A stretch of 64,000 nt of DNA from Pseudomonadota bacterium (lineage in GTDB: Bacteria > Pseudomonadota > Alphaproteobacteria > UBA1280 > RI-95): NCBI GenBank assembly GCA_016125375.1, contig WGLU01000007.1, positions 1-64,000 on the forward strand. Direction: 5' to 3'. Positions 1,422 through 6,097 of this stretch are shown here, piece after piece. The position numbers and the translations under genes were made by a program. The first letter of the stretch is position 1. Every line of letters starts with the position of its first letter. Below the pieces are notes generated by a model. It saw nothing but the letters and a program-made list of their open reading frames with translations, had not been told where the DNA came from and made no database searches.

Positions 1422-2696
1422 TCATTTCGGGCTCGCCCAGGCCGGCAGTGCGTCGAGGTATCGCAGCTCTTCACGAACCACAGGATCTAGCGCCTCGGGC
1501 AGCAAGTGTCGGAGCATCAACCATTCCTGCGACCGCTCATCGGCTTGTACGTCGCTCCGGTACCGACGCAGATGCTCCCCAACCCTAGCGTTAAGCAATC
1601 CGGCCATGGTCGTGTTCGCTATCAATCTTGTCAGTAGATCGGTGTAGCCACCGAAGGTACCAGCATGCAGGTAGGTGTTGAGCATCGCCCGGATGTTCGG
1701 GTGTGCGCTCGCGTAGTTGCGCTCCTTCCCGTTGGCCGCCGCGACGATAGAGAAGGCCGCAGCCATAAGCAGGCTTTGAGGACGGTCAAGGCCGGGGAGC
1801 GGTCCCTCGTGGTCCCACTTGGCGAGACTGTTGAACCATGGCCGGCGCCGTTGTTCGATGTCCGCAAGGAGCGGCGCTACGATCCGGTCTTCATGGTACG
1901 GGAGCTTTGACCGCGGGATGATCAGCTCATCGAATCGGACGAGCTGCGGCGGATCGAATCCGTCACCATTCCGCAGATAGCAGCTCAAGACCAGCGTGTG
2001 TTGCTTCTTCGAGGCCGATACCGCCGGAGGGTCGAGGACGAAGGCGTTGCCCCGGTGCCGGCGAATGACATCGAGAAAGCTCTGCTGCACCTGGACCTTG
2101 GTGTCGATGCCGAACAAGATCCAAAGCAGTGGTACTCCTTCGCGCTCATAGTGTTTGCAGCGGGCCGAAATCTCCGTCTGGAAGGTGCCCGACATCTGGA
2201 ACTCGACGGCGAACGTGCCGAAGCCTTCCCATTCGACATAGACATCCGGAAACCGGCCATGCGCCGTCTCCGTCGGTGGCAGATATTCCGCCATCGTATG
2301 CCTGACATAGCGCGGGTCGAGCGCGACAAGCGCTGCCACTTGCTCGCACATGAGCCGGTGGAAATCTGATTCTTGGCGACCGCCATACTGGGCCGCGCGG
2401 ACATCATCCGGCGTGGCGTTGCGGCCGTGGTGCCATGGGCATCTCGGGTCGCTACCGCTGTAATGTGCGAAGAGCGGAAGGCTGACGCCGCGTCGCCGCG
2501 CCGTTTTGATGTAGACGTGGCTATCGCATGCCAAACATTTGGCGAGAAGGCCGTCGTTGCCCTGTCTCCGGTCCGTGATCCGGTCGCGCAGTAGACCCCA
2601 GGTGTCTTCCGGCATTGCGACTAAGTCTTGAGCCGTCACAGGGCCAATGCCTTCGATCAGGGCAGCTTCAACAATCCGCTGTGGCTTCCGTGCCAT
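1422..2696 (-). CDS. CoiA-like / PD-(D/E)XK-fold nuclease candidate with N-terminal Cys/His region
   Basis: 424 aa; CLAC and FAHYSGSDPRCPWHH resemble a zinc site, and GRFPDVYVEWEGFGTFAVEFQMS resembles the CoiA-type D...ExQ nuclease motif. Confidence 0.5.
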   Translation of the reverse strand: MARKPQRIVEAALIEGIGPVTAQDLVAMPEDTWGLLRDRITDRRQGNDGLLAKCLACDSHVYIKTARRRGVSLPLFAHYSGSDPRCPWHHGRNATPDDVRAAQYGGRQESDFHRLMCEQVAALVALDPRYVRHTMAEYLPPTETAHGRFPDVYVEWEGFGTFAVEFQMSGTFQTEISARCKHYEREGVPLLWILFGIDTKVQVQQSFLDVIRRHRGNAFVLDPPAVSASKKQHTLVLSCYLRNGDGFDPPQLVRFDELIIPRSKLPYHEDRIVAPLLADIEQRRRPWFNSLAKWDHEGPLPGLDRPQSLLMAAAFSIVAAANGKERNYASAHPNIRAMLNTYLHAGTFGGYTDLLTRLIANTTMAGLLNARVGEHLRRYRSDVQADERSQEWLMLRHLLPEALDPVVREELRYLDALPAWASPK

Positions 2697-2714
2697 CCCA
2701 ATCAGTCGCAGCCG

Positions 2715-3473
2715 CTATGTTAGGGCATACGCCGAGCGGAGAAGCTCGACCGCCTCGTCGCGCGTGAACGGGACATCAAAAGTTTTGGGGTCCAGGGTTC
2801 CGTCAGCTTGCGCCGCTTCGACGAATCGCCGGAGATCGTCGCGGATTGGTGCGGAAACTTCGATCGCGACCCCTTCCGGCAGGAGTTGCACCAGACGGAA
2901 CACGTCATTGCGGTGTTTCTTGATGTTCTTGCTGTCAACCTTCTCTCCGCTTTCCAAGCGAGCGCTCAGGTCGAGGAACGCCCGGGCCTTGAACGGAATG
3001 AGCAGGGATTCGTCGATGATCGTCACGCCGTCCACCTGCCGCTTGGCCGCTTGTAGGGCCTCATAGTAGCCATCATCGAGAAGGATAGCCGACAGGCTGA
3101 CCACATCCTCTTCGACGGGGATCGGCGTAAAGCCCGTATCCTCCGAGAGCTCGATTGTTCCCGGCTTCCGAGAGAACAGCTCGATCATGAAAGGGAAGTT
3201 GGGGTCTTTCGGGCGGTGAAACCGATAGAACTCCTTCGCGCCGTCACTCCGCTCGCGTGCCTCGTACTCGCCGGCATCGAGGAAAGCTTTGAAAGCATTT
3301 CCGAACGCGGCGTCGACGACTTCGACACAAAGCACCATGTCGATGTCTTTGGTCGCTCTAAAATCGAGACCCGCGGCGCCGAACAGAAGATCGCAGGCAG
3401 TCCCGCCGATGATCGCGTATTGGTCCTCGTGGCCGGCGAAATGCTCTCGGAACTTCTCGATTCCAACTACCAT
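2715..3473 (-). CDS. Nucleotidyltransferase-fold protein, AbiEii-like
   Basis: Motif IIGGTACDLLFGAAGLDFRATKDIDMVL fits the hG[GS]...DxD NTase signature; overlaps the upstream gene by 7 nt. Confidence 0.6.
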   Translation of the reverse strand: MVVGIEKFREHFAGHEDQYAIIGGTACDLLFGAAGLDFRATKDIDMVLCVEVVDAAFGNAFKAFLDAGEYEARERSDGAKEFYRFHRPKDPNFPFMIELFSRKPGTIELSEDTGFTPIPVEEDVVSLSAILLDDGYYEALQAAKRQVDGVTIIDESLLIPFKARAFLDLSARLESGEKVDSKNIKKHRNDVFRLVQLLPEGVAIEVSAPIRDDLRRFVEAAQADGTLDPKTFDVPFTRDEAVELLRSAYALT

Positions 3474-4474
3474 ACAACCCTCTCCAATAGTCGTTCAGCC
3501 GCCATGGACACACGTTCGTCGCGGTGATCGCGGAATTGCGCATAAAGCGATAGTGGGTCCACGACGTGCGTGTCTGACAGGCCGGCCGGATCGTAAGACC
3601 ACGTCTCCACAACGTAGTCTGCTCGGTCACGGTCGGTTTCTGTCACGCCGTCGGCTTGTGCAATGGCTTTCCAGGCACTGGCGGCAACGGCATAGGTTTC
3701 CAGATGCGGCCGGGACAAGTCGGTTAGCTCTGCTAGAGCACTCTCTCCCCCGCGCTTCGACATTCGGAGGGCGTGGCCGTCCCTGATAAACTTTTCGGCG
3801 CGCACTGGACTGCGCAACAGCTCTCGCGCGGCATCGAATAGTTGTCTCCCGTCGCTTTTGAACCGGATATGTCTCTCCTTGCCGTACTTATCCGAATAGG
3901 CGAGGCCCGCGGCGATGAGATCGTCAAAAGCCCTACCGATGGACATGGCCGAATAGCGCAGTCGTGCGGCAATCTGCGATGGCGTCGTTGCTGTTACATC
4001 GAGTCTCAGAAGGTGATGAAACAGAACGGCTTGGGCCGCCGGTGACAGTCCGTCGGCGTGTCTGTTCTTGAGGGCACGGAAATGCTCACGAAGATCCATG
4101 GCCAAGTCGGGAATGTAGAGTTGATTGCCTGGCACGACGAACGGTACGCCCTGGCCGATAAGGCGGGAACGGTTGTGGGCGCTAAGCGACGGCGTGGCGA
4201 AGATGACGATCGCATCGAATGCGTCACGTACCAGACCGATGTGCTTGGCAACATCGGACGGGGTGGCGTGGTTTTCCGAAGATGCCAGGAAGATGCACTT
4301 TCTCCCGGCAATATGGCCCTCAAAGAGGCTGTATGTGCGCCCTAGGAAGGCGGGCAGGCCGGGTGCGCGTTCGAGCGTGTCCACCCGGATCCGATCATGG
4401 AGCGTTTCGCCGAGATACCGCTCCAGCGCCCCAGCAAACTGCCTTCCGAAAATGTCGTGCTTCGTCTCTAACAT
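3467..4474 (-). CDS. Putative winged-helix regulator/antitoxin partner of the NTase
   Basis: MLETKHDIFGRQFAGALERYL...; middle segment TPSQIAARLRYSAMSIGRAFDDLIAAGLAY looks like a wHTH. The ORF track uses a GTG at 4492; ATG at 4474 is more likely. Confidence 0.5.
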   Translation of the reverse strand: MLETKHDIFGRQFAGALERYLGETLHDRIRVDTLERAPGLPAFLGRTYSLFEGHIAGRKCIFLASSENHATPSDVAKHIGLVRDAFDAIVIFATPSLSAHNRSRLIGQGVPFVVPGNQLYIPDLAMDLREHFRALKNRHADGLSPAAQAVLFHHLLRLDVTATTPSQIAARLRYSAMSIGRAFDDLIAAGLAYSDKYGKERHIRFKSDGRQLFDAARELLRSPVRAEKFIRDGHALRMSKRGGESALAELTDLSRPHLETYAVAASAWKAIAQADGVTETDRDRADYVVETWSYDPAGLSDTHVVDPLSLYAQFRDHRDERVSMAAERLLERVVW

Positions 4475-4508
4475 GATATTGAACACTAACACTGATATTG
4501 TTAGCGTG
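4474..4508. promoter_or_regulatory. Putative operator upstream of the three-gene operon
   Basis: TGATATTG at 4474-4481 and 4493-4500; inverted repeat CTAAC (4486-4490)/GTTAG (4500-4504), at the start codon of the first gene. Confidence 0.4.
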
Positions 4509-4694
4509 CAAGATCGATGTTATCCCACTGTTAGAAATAGGCCAACTCCCACAAAGGATGCCTGTTCTTCATTTGCGACGCGCGTCGGGAGGGTGTCTCT
4601 CGCGACGATGGAATAGAACATAAAAAGAACAATCTGCCGCCGCCGCGAAGGATCACTTATGACCAGGATCATGCGGGAAAGGCTCTCGTGAGGC

Positions 4695-5840
4695 TCACTT
4701 CCGAGCCTTCTTTTTATGCTTTAGGACGGCCACGTTGTCGTTTGCGGGTTCGTCGAAGATGGCTCTATTCATACTTTCGACGACCTTCGATACGTGCTGG
4801 TCGCTCAGGTGAGCATAGCGCTTCACCATCTGAAGCGTCTTATGGCCGAGAACCTCGGCGATCTCGGCCAAACTTGCGCCGTTCATCGCGAGATAGGACG
4901 CAGCGCTATGGCGCAGATCGTGGAATCGAAAGTCGGTGATCCCGGCTGTTTCCAAAGCCGCCAGCCAATGCTTGCGGATTTCCATCGGCGCTAATCCATC
5001 TTGCCGAGGGAAAACCCAACCTGTGTTCGGGCATCCTTCGATCTCATGATGCTCTTTCATGATCTCCAAAGCATGGTGTGTCAGTGGGAGTGTGCGACGT
5101 TCCTTGTTTTTCGTCCTCTCTAGGCGTGCAACTCCACGCGCGAGATCGACCTGCTCCCAGGTCAGATGCATGATTTCGCTGTAGCGGGCACCGGTAGACA
5201 GGGCAATAACGACGATCGGGTACAAGAGTGGACATGAACTGCTTTTGCAAGCTTGCAAGAGCCGGGTCCGCTCAGCATCGCTCAGGAACCGCGCACGTGG
5301 TTGAGGCAAGCTAGGCTTTTTCACCTTTCGCATCGGGTTGCTATCGAGCCATTCCCATTCTTGAACTGCAATAGTGAAGGCTTGCGACAATATGGCCATA
5401 TAGCGGGCTACTGTAGCCGGACTCTTCGTCTTGTCTTCCGTCCGATTTTTGGCGTTCCTGTTTCGCTCAGACGGCGATCGCAATAGCTTGTTTCTAGCTT
5501 CGGCTAACATGGACGGCGTCAGCGCTTGAAGTGTTGTTTCCCCCAATTCGTTTCGCCACCATCCGAGACAGTTGCGGATCTTCTGTTGCTCTGCGGCTTC
5601 CCGTTTCGGGAGTTCCAGCCGAATGTAATCGTCGATCAAATCGGCCAGTGTCTTCCTTTGAGCTTCGCGCCCCTTGAAATAGCGCTCCTCCCGGATGGCT
5701 GCTTCGGTTTGAACGAGCCAGGCCTTGGCTGCGCGGAGTTCATTGAAGGTGGCCGTCTGGGTGGGGGTACCTTTTAATCGTACAACGACCTTGTACCTTG
5801 TCCCGCCGTCTTTGGTGTTTCGTGACGTAATCGTTCCCAT
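4695..5840 (-). CDS. Tyrosine recombinase/phage integrase
   Basis: MGTITSRNTKDGGTRYKVVVRLKG...LSTGARYSEIMHLTWEQV...FRFHDLRHSAASYLAMNGASLAEIAEVLGHKTLQMVKRYAHLS; catalytic R, HxxR and Y motifs visible. Confidence 0.93.
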   Translation of the reverse strand: MGTITSRNTKDGGTRYKVVVRLKGTPTQTATFNELRAAKAWLVQTEAAIREERYFKGREAQRKTLADLIDDYIRLELPKREAAEQQKIRNCLGWWRNELGETTLQALTPSMLAEARNKLLRSPSERNRNAKNRTEDKTKSPATVARYMAILSQAFTIAVQEWEWLDSNPMRKVKKPSLPQPRARFLSDAERTRLLQACKSSSCPLLYPIVVIALSTGARYSEIMHLTWEQVDLARGVARLERTKNKERRTLPLTHHALEIMKEHHEIEGCPNTGWVFPRQDGLAPMEIRKHWLAALETAGITDFRFHDLRHSAASYLAMNGASLAEIAEVLGHKTLQMVKRYAHLSDQHVSKVVESMNRAIFDEPANDNVAVLKHKKKARK

Positions 5841-5915
5841 GAAAAATAAACTCGACAATTGTACGTTGATTAATATTGTATATACCTAAATAATACCATG
5901 AACGAGGCGTTGTTG

Positions 5916-5933: not shown

Positions 5934-6052
5934 ATGATTATTAAATTAAGATCGATGAGCGCAACTGTATACAAAAATATTATCGGACAAGTCCTTGTAA
6001 ATAAAGGTGTGTGAACTTTCTCGTTGTAAATGTCTTTGACTTGAAAGCACCT

Positions 6053-6097
6053 CTCATAATGCCTTGGTCGGGGGTTCAAATCCCTCTGGGCCCACCA
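6053..6097 (+). other. 3' fragment of a tRNA(CAT) with GGGCCCA-type acceptor, putative att core
   Basis: CTCATAATGCCTTGGTCGGGGGTTCAAATCCCTCTGGGCCCACCA; no complementary AGGCA stem or 5' GGGCCCA acceptor upstream. Confidence 0.75.

Follow-up and report, generated by a model that had tools for sequence, protein, structure and literature searches.

AbiE systems are characterised by a bacteriostatic toxin, which is neutralised without direct contact, and by GTP binding. Such pairs can provide phage resistance and stabilise plasmids or ICEs, as described in PMC3985639 and PMC11062541. Motifs I to IV of the nucleotidyltransferase (NTase) AbiEii are defined in PMC3985639, where the C-terminal domain of S. 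agalactiae AbiEi is also reported to suffice for neutralisation. CoiA, in turn, carries a PD-EXQ variant of the active site with a conserved arginine (PMC1189080). Our literature search found nothing relevant that ties CoiA to AbiEii or to defence or anti-phage roles, and nothing relevant on DUF6035.

We found that a 64,000-nucleotide contig stretch from a Pseudomonadota bacterium (hereafter the window) holds a three-gene locus with likeness to both: gene A, a regulator and putative antitoxin, gene B, a putative NTase toxin, and gene C, a CoiA-family protein. All three lie on the minus strand, B at 2715-3473 (252 aa) and C at 1422-2696 (424 aa). A, called from ORF and profile evidence, is open over 3467-4492 and reads as 335 aa from an ATG at 4474 (3467-4474) or as 341 aa from a GTG at 4492; the ATG is most likely the start, because homologues begin at the equivalent methionine and the GTG falls inside the predicted promoter. 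A and B overlap by 7 nt (3467-3473), B and C are separated by 18 nt (2697-2714), and the genes are flanked by two minus-strand tyrosine integrase genes, one cut by the contig edge (1-1107) and one recognised by ORF and profile (4695-5858). In gene number, strand, overlap, spacing and flanking integrases, the locus agrees with the original prediction, and the gene identities proposed there (wHTH regulator, AbiEii-like NTase, CoiA-family nuclease-like protein) all gained profile, motif and profile-profile support. Comparison of the window with the trios of Telmatospirillum sp. J64-1 (L010) and genome G047 (L027) gave a pN/pS of 0.25-0.26 in A, 0.15-0.17 in B and 0.15-0.22 in C, so that each gene is under purifying selection and none of the ORFs is a product of chance.

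Gene B most likely encodes an AbiEii/DUF1814-like NTase. Fourteen sequences of its family share the invariant residues G23-G24, R39-x3-D43xD45, E98, K162, A165 and K186-H187-x-x-D190. Among these are motif I (hGG; G23 G24) and motif II (DhD; D43, D45) with its preceding arginine (R39), at a spacing of 18 in B versus 15 in PMC3985639, as well as K162 of motif III, whereas motif IV reads K186-H187-x-x-D190, with histidine in place of the first aspartate of +DxxD. B scores 16.9 bits against Pfam AbiEii, under the curated cut-off of 22.5, six of the 14 members match this profile weakly (best E 0.0016), and hhalign connects the families with an E of 4e-5 in the motif I/II region only. A PDB profile search with B gave one weak NTase, and PADLOC models produced scattered weak matches only across the family. 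Since the curated AbiEii cut-off is missed and motif IV differs, we name the pair AbiE-like and do not file it as AbiE.

The regulator A combines an N-terminal alpha/beta domain, a MarR-like wHTH (aa 142-192) and a conserved C-terminal domain. MarR/wHTH-type domains are its only Pfam finding, with a score under the gathering cut-off for MarR_2. Profile-profile comparison by hhalign, with a five-member alignment on the AbiEi_2 side, places A colinear with AbiEi_2 antitoxins over its full length (E 1.4e-5 over 276 columns). Compared domain by domain against 60 column-shuffled alignments, the N-terminal domain alone scores 29.9 (null maximum 17.5) and the wHTH alone 20.2 (null maximum 19.2), with none of the 60 shuffles reaching either value; the C-terminal domain alone, at 13.9 and a null maximum of 18.9, has no significant likeness to AbiEi_2. 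Its structure model is good (pLDDT 86.8), but a Foldseek search with it returned generic wHTH matches only, none at E<=1e-3, and the PDB profile search likewise led to generic wHTH proteins. A survey of 58 + 200 genomes with Pfam AbiEi_2 gave a single match. We also considered A as a CARF protein (PADLOC CARF3, E 0.004) and rejected this candidate, as the match is confined to the wHTH region.

A and B travel together. By tblastn, B was found in 51 plasmid records and A in 35, many of the listed records holding both genes, adjacent and in the same order. A lies directly 5' of B in 16/16 fetched A-B loci from plasmids and phages and, equally, in all 16 IMG/VR viral contigs. The fetched loci comprise Pseudomonadota (Shinella, Yoonia, Methylocella, Novosphingobium, Mesorhizobium, Sphingobium, Croceicoccus, Pseudomonas), Campylobacterota, Bacillota, Actinomycetota, Bacteroidota and one faecal phage record; C is absent from the fetched stretches of both the 16 plasmid/phage and the 16 viral loci. 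Within the 385 genomes of the class, B occurs in two, the window's own and G047. A search of PADLOC-DB with A, B and C returned no meaningful match. Judging from its sequences, A-B is most likely a divergent toxin-antitoxin pair of type IV (AbiE-like), a cross-phylum pair that Pfam cut-offs and PADLOC overlook. In Methylocella tundrae (L022 6762-9077), another gene takes the third place behind A-B, overlapping it by 4 nt; its product is an nSTAND3 NTPase that has a weak Mrr-like domain and resembles the PADLOC candidate PDC-S73. As this case illustrates, A-B may be a host of variable third genes. On an Azospirillum plasmid (L035 4025-4966), A occurs without B and is followed by a DEAD/DEAH helicase similar to MkoC.

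The original prediction had placed a repeat-based operator at the head of the genes, and such an element is present as the 33-nt palindrome TTGCACGCTAACAATATCAGTGTTAGTGTTCAA (4511-4479, minus strand), of the form TTGCAC..TAAC-N9-GTTA..GTGCAA. It begins 37 nt 5' of the ATG at 4474, and its half-sites are complementary at 11 of 13 positions, the right arm being imperfect in the window. Within it lie the predicted -35 (TTGCAC, 4506-4511, minus) and -10 (TAGTGT, 4483-4488, minus) elements. The -35 TTGCAC stands 17 bp from the -10 (TAGTGT/TACTAT/TATCGT), which is followed by the ATG after 8 nt; transcription of A is accordingly predicted to start at or beside ATG 4474, with a leaderless or nearly leaderless message. 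Telmatospirillum, Shinella, Yoonia and Methylocella carry a motif TTGCAY-N2-TAAC-N9-GTTA-N2-GTGC that begins at -36 or -37, the sphingomonads have shorter TAACA/TGTTA palindromes in the corresponding interval 5' of A, and most viral A-B loci have TGCAC...GTGCA palindromes of similar half-spacing near A. Single palindromes reach 9-12 of 13, near the shuffled maxima, and the window locus alone lies within the shuffled range (null maximum 11). We nonetheless judge the operator to be real, because recurrence at a fixed offset from the ATG exceeds chance. It offers a simple handle on the control of such pairs.

Gene C encodes a CoiA/DUF6035-family PD-ExQ nuclease-like protein. It scores 26.2 bits against CoiA_nuc (PF06054), over the curated cut-off of 20.3, and its relatives match CoiA_nuc in 12/12 cases (E<=0.1) and DUF6035 in 11/12. 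Invariant in these 12 sequences are Zn-ribbon-like residues (C54-x2-C57...H78...C86) and a nuclease signature (P150 D151...E165-x-Q167...R179), in which R179, by its position, would correspond to the conserved arginine of PMC1189080; the C-terminus is helical. An AF2 model built from a four-sequence alignment (pLDDT 44) was set aside and lends the nuclease reading no support, a PDB profile search with C matched nothing, and no HEPN domain was matched.

Relatives of C, which are seen in plasmids and prophages, mostly lack an A-B pair, and five of the 385 genomes of the class, the window's own included, have C. A plain listing of their defence-gene neighbours, not set against a random-gene control, includes HamB-like helicases (Leisingera, Bosea), a group VI reverse transcriptase (Leisingera, L020), type II methyltransferases and restriction enzymes (a Histidinibacterium prophage, L029), AbiEi/AbiEii (Bosea), AbiEii (Caulobacter, Thalassospira) and RES-Xre (Thalassospira). 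Apart from the HamB-like helicase, common to Leisingera and Bosea, we found no conserved neighbour that C loci share. In Sphingobium (L018 5950-7943), where a CBASS cyclase lies nearby, the C homologue has a 4-nt overlap with a PD-Lambda-3_B (TIGR02391) gene, which is possibly a second partnership of this nuclease family. This overlap suggested C as PD-Lambda-3_A, a candidate ruled out by PADLOC models, which matched 0/12 members of the C family. The family thus lies repeatedly beside defence genes, yet is missing from PADLOC. Should C prove to be a nuclease directed against phages, a fold familiar mainly from natural competence would acquire a part in defence.

The order A-B-C was seen in three genomes. 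Identity to the window trio is 68% (A), 82% (B) and 87% (C) in Telmatospirillum sp. J64-1 and 71%, 81% and 77% in G047, where a different integrase and an AlbA_2 gene flank the trio, near a tRNA-Arg. In trees, A and B of the trios cluster, and their sister is Shinella, which is without C; in the tree of C, the window clusters with Telmatospirillum and the position of G047 is not settled. This pattern fits, but does not prove, a single joining of C to A-B with subsequent transfer. The trio is genuine, though rare, and the A-B and C surveys rule it out as a generally conserved three-gene system. The three-gene system of the original prediction is thus weakly supported: the trio does recur in two other genomes in different element contexts, but all other A-B loci examined are without C and C is mostly without A-B.

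Downstream of C, the window and the Telmatospirillum locus have in common a terminator and GGCACA repeats, together with a 47-bp part of tRNA-fMet. In the window, these are an intrinsic-terminator-like inverted repeat (1300-1332, no strand assigned) that is conserved in Telmatospirillum, a GGCACA-type attachment arm repeat on the C side (1337-1368, plus), which is 88% identical to a copy of the same type on the side of integrase 1 (1086-1117, plus), and between these a core (1224-1271, plus) from the 3' part of tRNA-fMet, of which about 47 bp are identical to the intact Telmatospirillum tRNA-Met. There, this tRNA gene is followed by 5S and 23S rRNA genes, which makes the trio the outermost cargo of an element in tRNA-fMet behind an rrn operon and places C at the attachment end in two genomes. 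In the window, the tRNA is reduced to its 3' part, and since this truncated core is flanked by arm repeats, the interval 1086-1368 resembles an attP or a tandem-element junction, which suggests that elements are joined in tandem or as a circle at a tRNA-fMet hotspot linked to rrn. On contig C7 of the same genome (L063 7060-7108), a further partial tRNA-fMet core lies about 120 bp from the contig end, an indication that the hotspot holds a second element or junction. A second tRNA 3'-end fragment (6050-6097, plus) beside integrase 2 is the putative attachment site of that enzyme; no second copy was found in the assembly, and its intact tRNA is therefore missing or diverged.

Taking these observations together, we consider it probable that A-B is an autoregulated, AbiE-like toxin-antitoxin pair with a maintenance or abortive-defence function, into whose operon an independently mobile CoiA-family nuclease was captured. 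Conservation of the pair, the AbiEii motifs of B, the colinearity of A with AbiEi_2 and the operator over the -35 and -10 elements carry this reading. Carried by integrative elements, A would bind the palindrome over its own promoter, block it and so repress the operon; if A were lost or overridden, B, as a DNA-polymerase-beta-type NTase, might modify a cell component and halt growth, and this arrest, against which A would normally protect, could stabilise the element, abort phage infection, or both. C, normally a stand-alone cargo of defence-rich regions, would have been captured directly 3' of B in one alphaproteobacterial lineage, where it is placed for co-transcription from the A-controlled promoter and for action on incoming DNA. 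In a bolder version, which we regard as rather doubtful, the pair transcriptionally controls the PD-ExQ nuclease, and once A is lost or titrated in the course of infection or invasion, a growth-arresting NTase and a DNA-degrading effector are derepressed together; if this is true, tRNA-fMet integrative elements would carry a two-tier defence at their attachment end.

An obligate three-gene defence or stability system, in which A-B senses a trigger and licenses or restrains C as nuclease effector, would account for a gene order and close spacing shared by three genomes whose element contexts differ, for the purifying selection on all three genes, and for the classical AbiEi-AbiEii pair 5' of a C homologue in Bosea and the AbiEii genes near C in Caulobacter and Thalassospira. 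We think it unlikely, as every other A-B locus examined, the sister pair in Shinella included, does without C, and C stands alone in prophages and plasmids; the Bosea genes, moreover, are 363 nt apart, and AbiE relatives of the Bosea pair are without annotated C. Less probable still is a reading without a toxin-antitoxin pair, in which A would be a common MarR-type regulator and B an NTase of metabolism or housekeeping: the bare MarR/wHTH assignment of A in Pfam and the sub-threshold AbiEii score of B would agree with this, but such genes would hardly be expected mainly on plasmids, phages and islands, sporadic in the class (2/385 genomes, the window's own included), in fixed order with overlap or near-overlap behind an operator over their own promoter, with an N-terminal domain in A that matches AbiEi_2 outside the wHTH and AbiEii motifs kept in B. 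In HEPN/MNT, the NTase MntA is an antitoxin that modifies its toxin (PMC7641770), and B here does adjoin a nuclease-like gene; that B is likewise an antitoxin modifying C (e.g. by adenylylation), with C as the toxin, is nevertheless very improbable, because C, which lacks a HEPN match, is missing at nearly all A-B loci and hence is not a general partner of B.

Compared with described systems, C shares with CoiA (PF06054/COG4469) and DUF6035 (PF19500) the Zn-ribbon-like N-terminus, the PD-ExQ signature and the conserved arginine (PMC1189080), but differs in its long helical C-terminus and in its location among the defence genes of plasmids, prophages and islands, with competence genes not linked here. 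B resembles AbiEii in motifs I-III and most of motif IV and departs from it in K-H-x-x-D versus +DxxD, in its score under the Pfam cut-off and in going unrecognised by PADLOC. In A, the wHTH is central, behind the N-terminal alpha/beta domain, whereas it is N-terminal in S. agalactiae AbiEi, and the promoter of A is apparently leaderless, whereas +1 lies 26 bp from the ATG in S. agalactiae AbiE. The pair nevertheless shares with AbiE (AbiEi/AbiEii, PMC3985639; AbiEi_2, PF09952) a regulator gene that comes first and is overlapped by the NTase gene, a wHTH, inverted repeats at the promoter and carriage on plasmids and integrative elements. The available part of the report on ICESsuHN105 (PMC11062541) mentions no CoiA-like third gene and describes an AbiEi that also binds oriT and is assisted by a second TA system; as proposed for the AbiE-like pair of our locus, an AbiE pair resides there on an integrative element, and its antitoxin binds palindromes in its own promoter.
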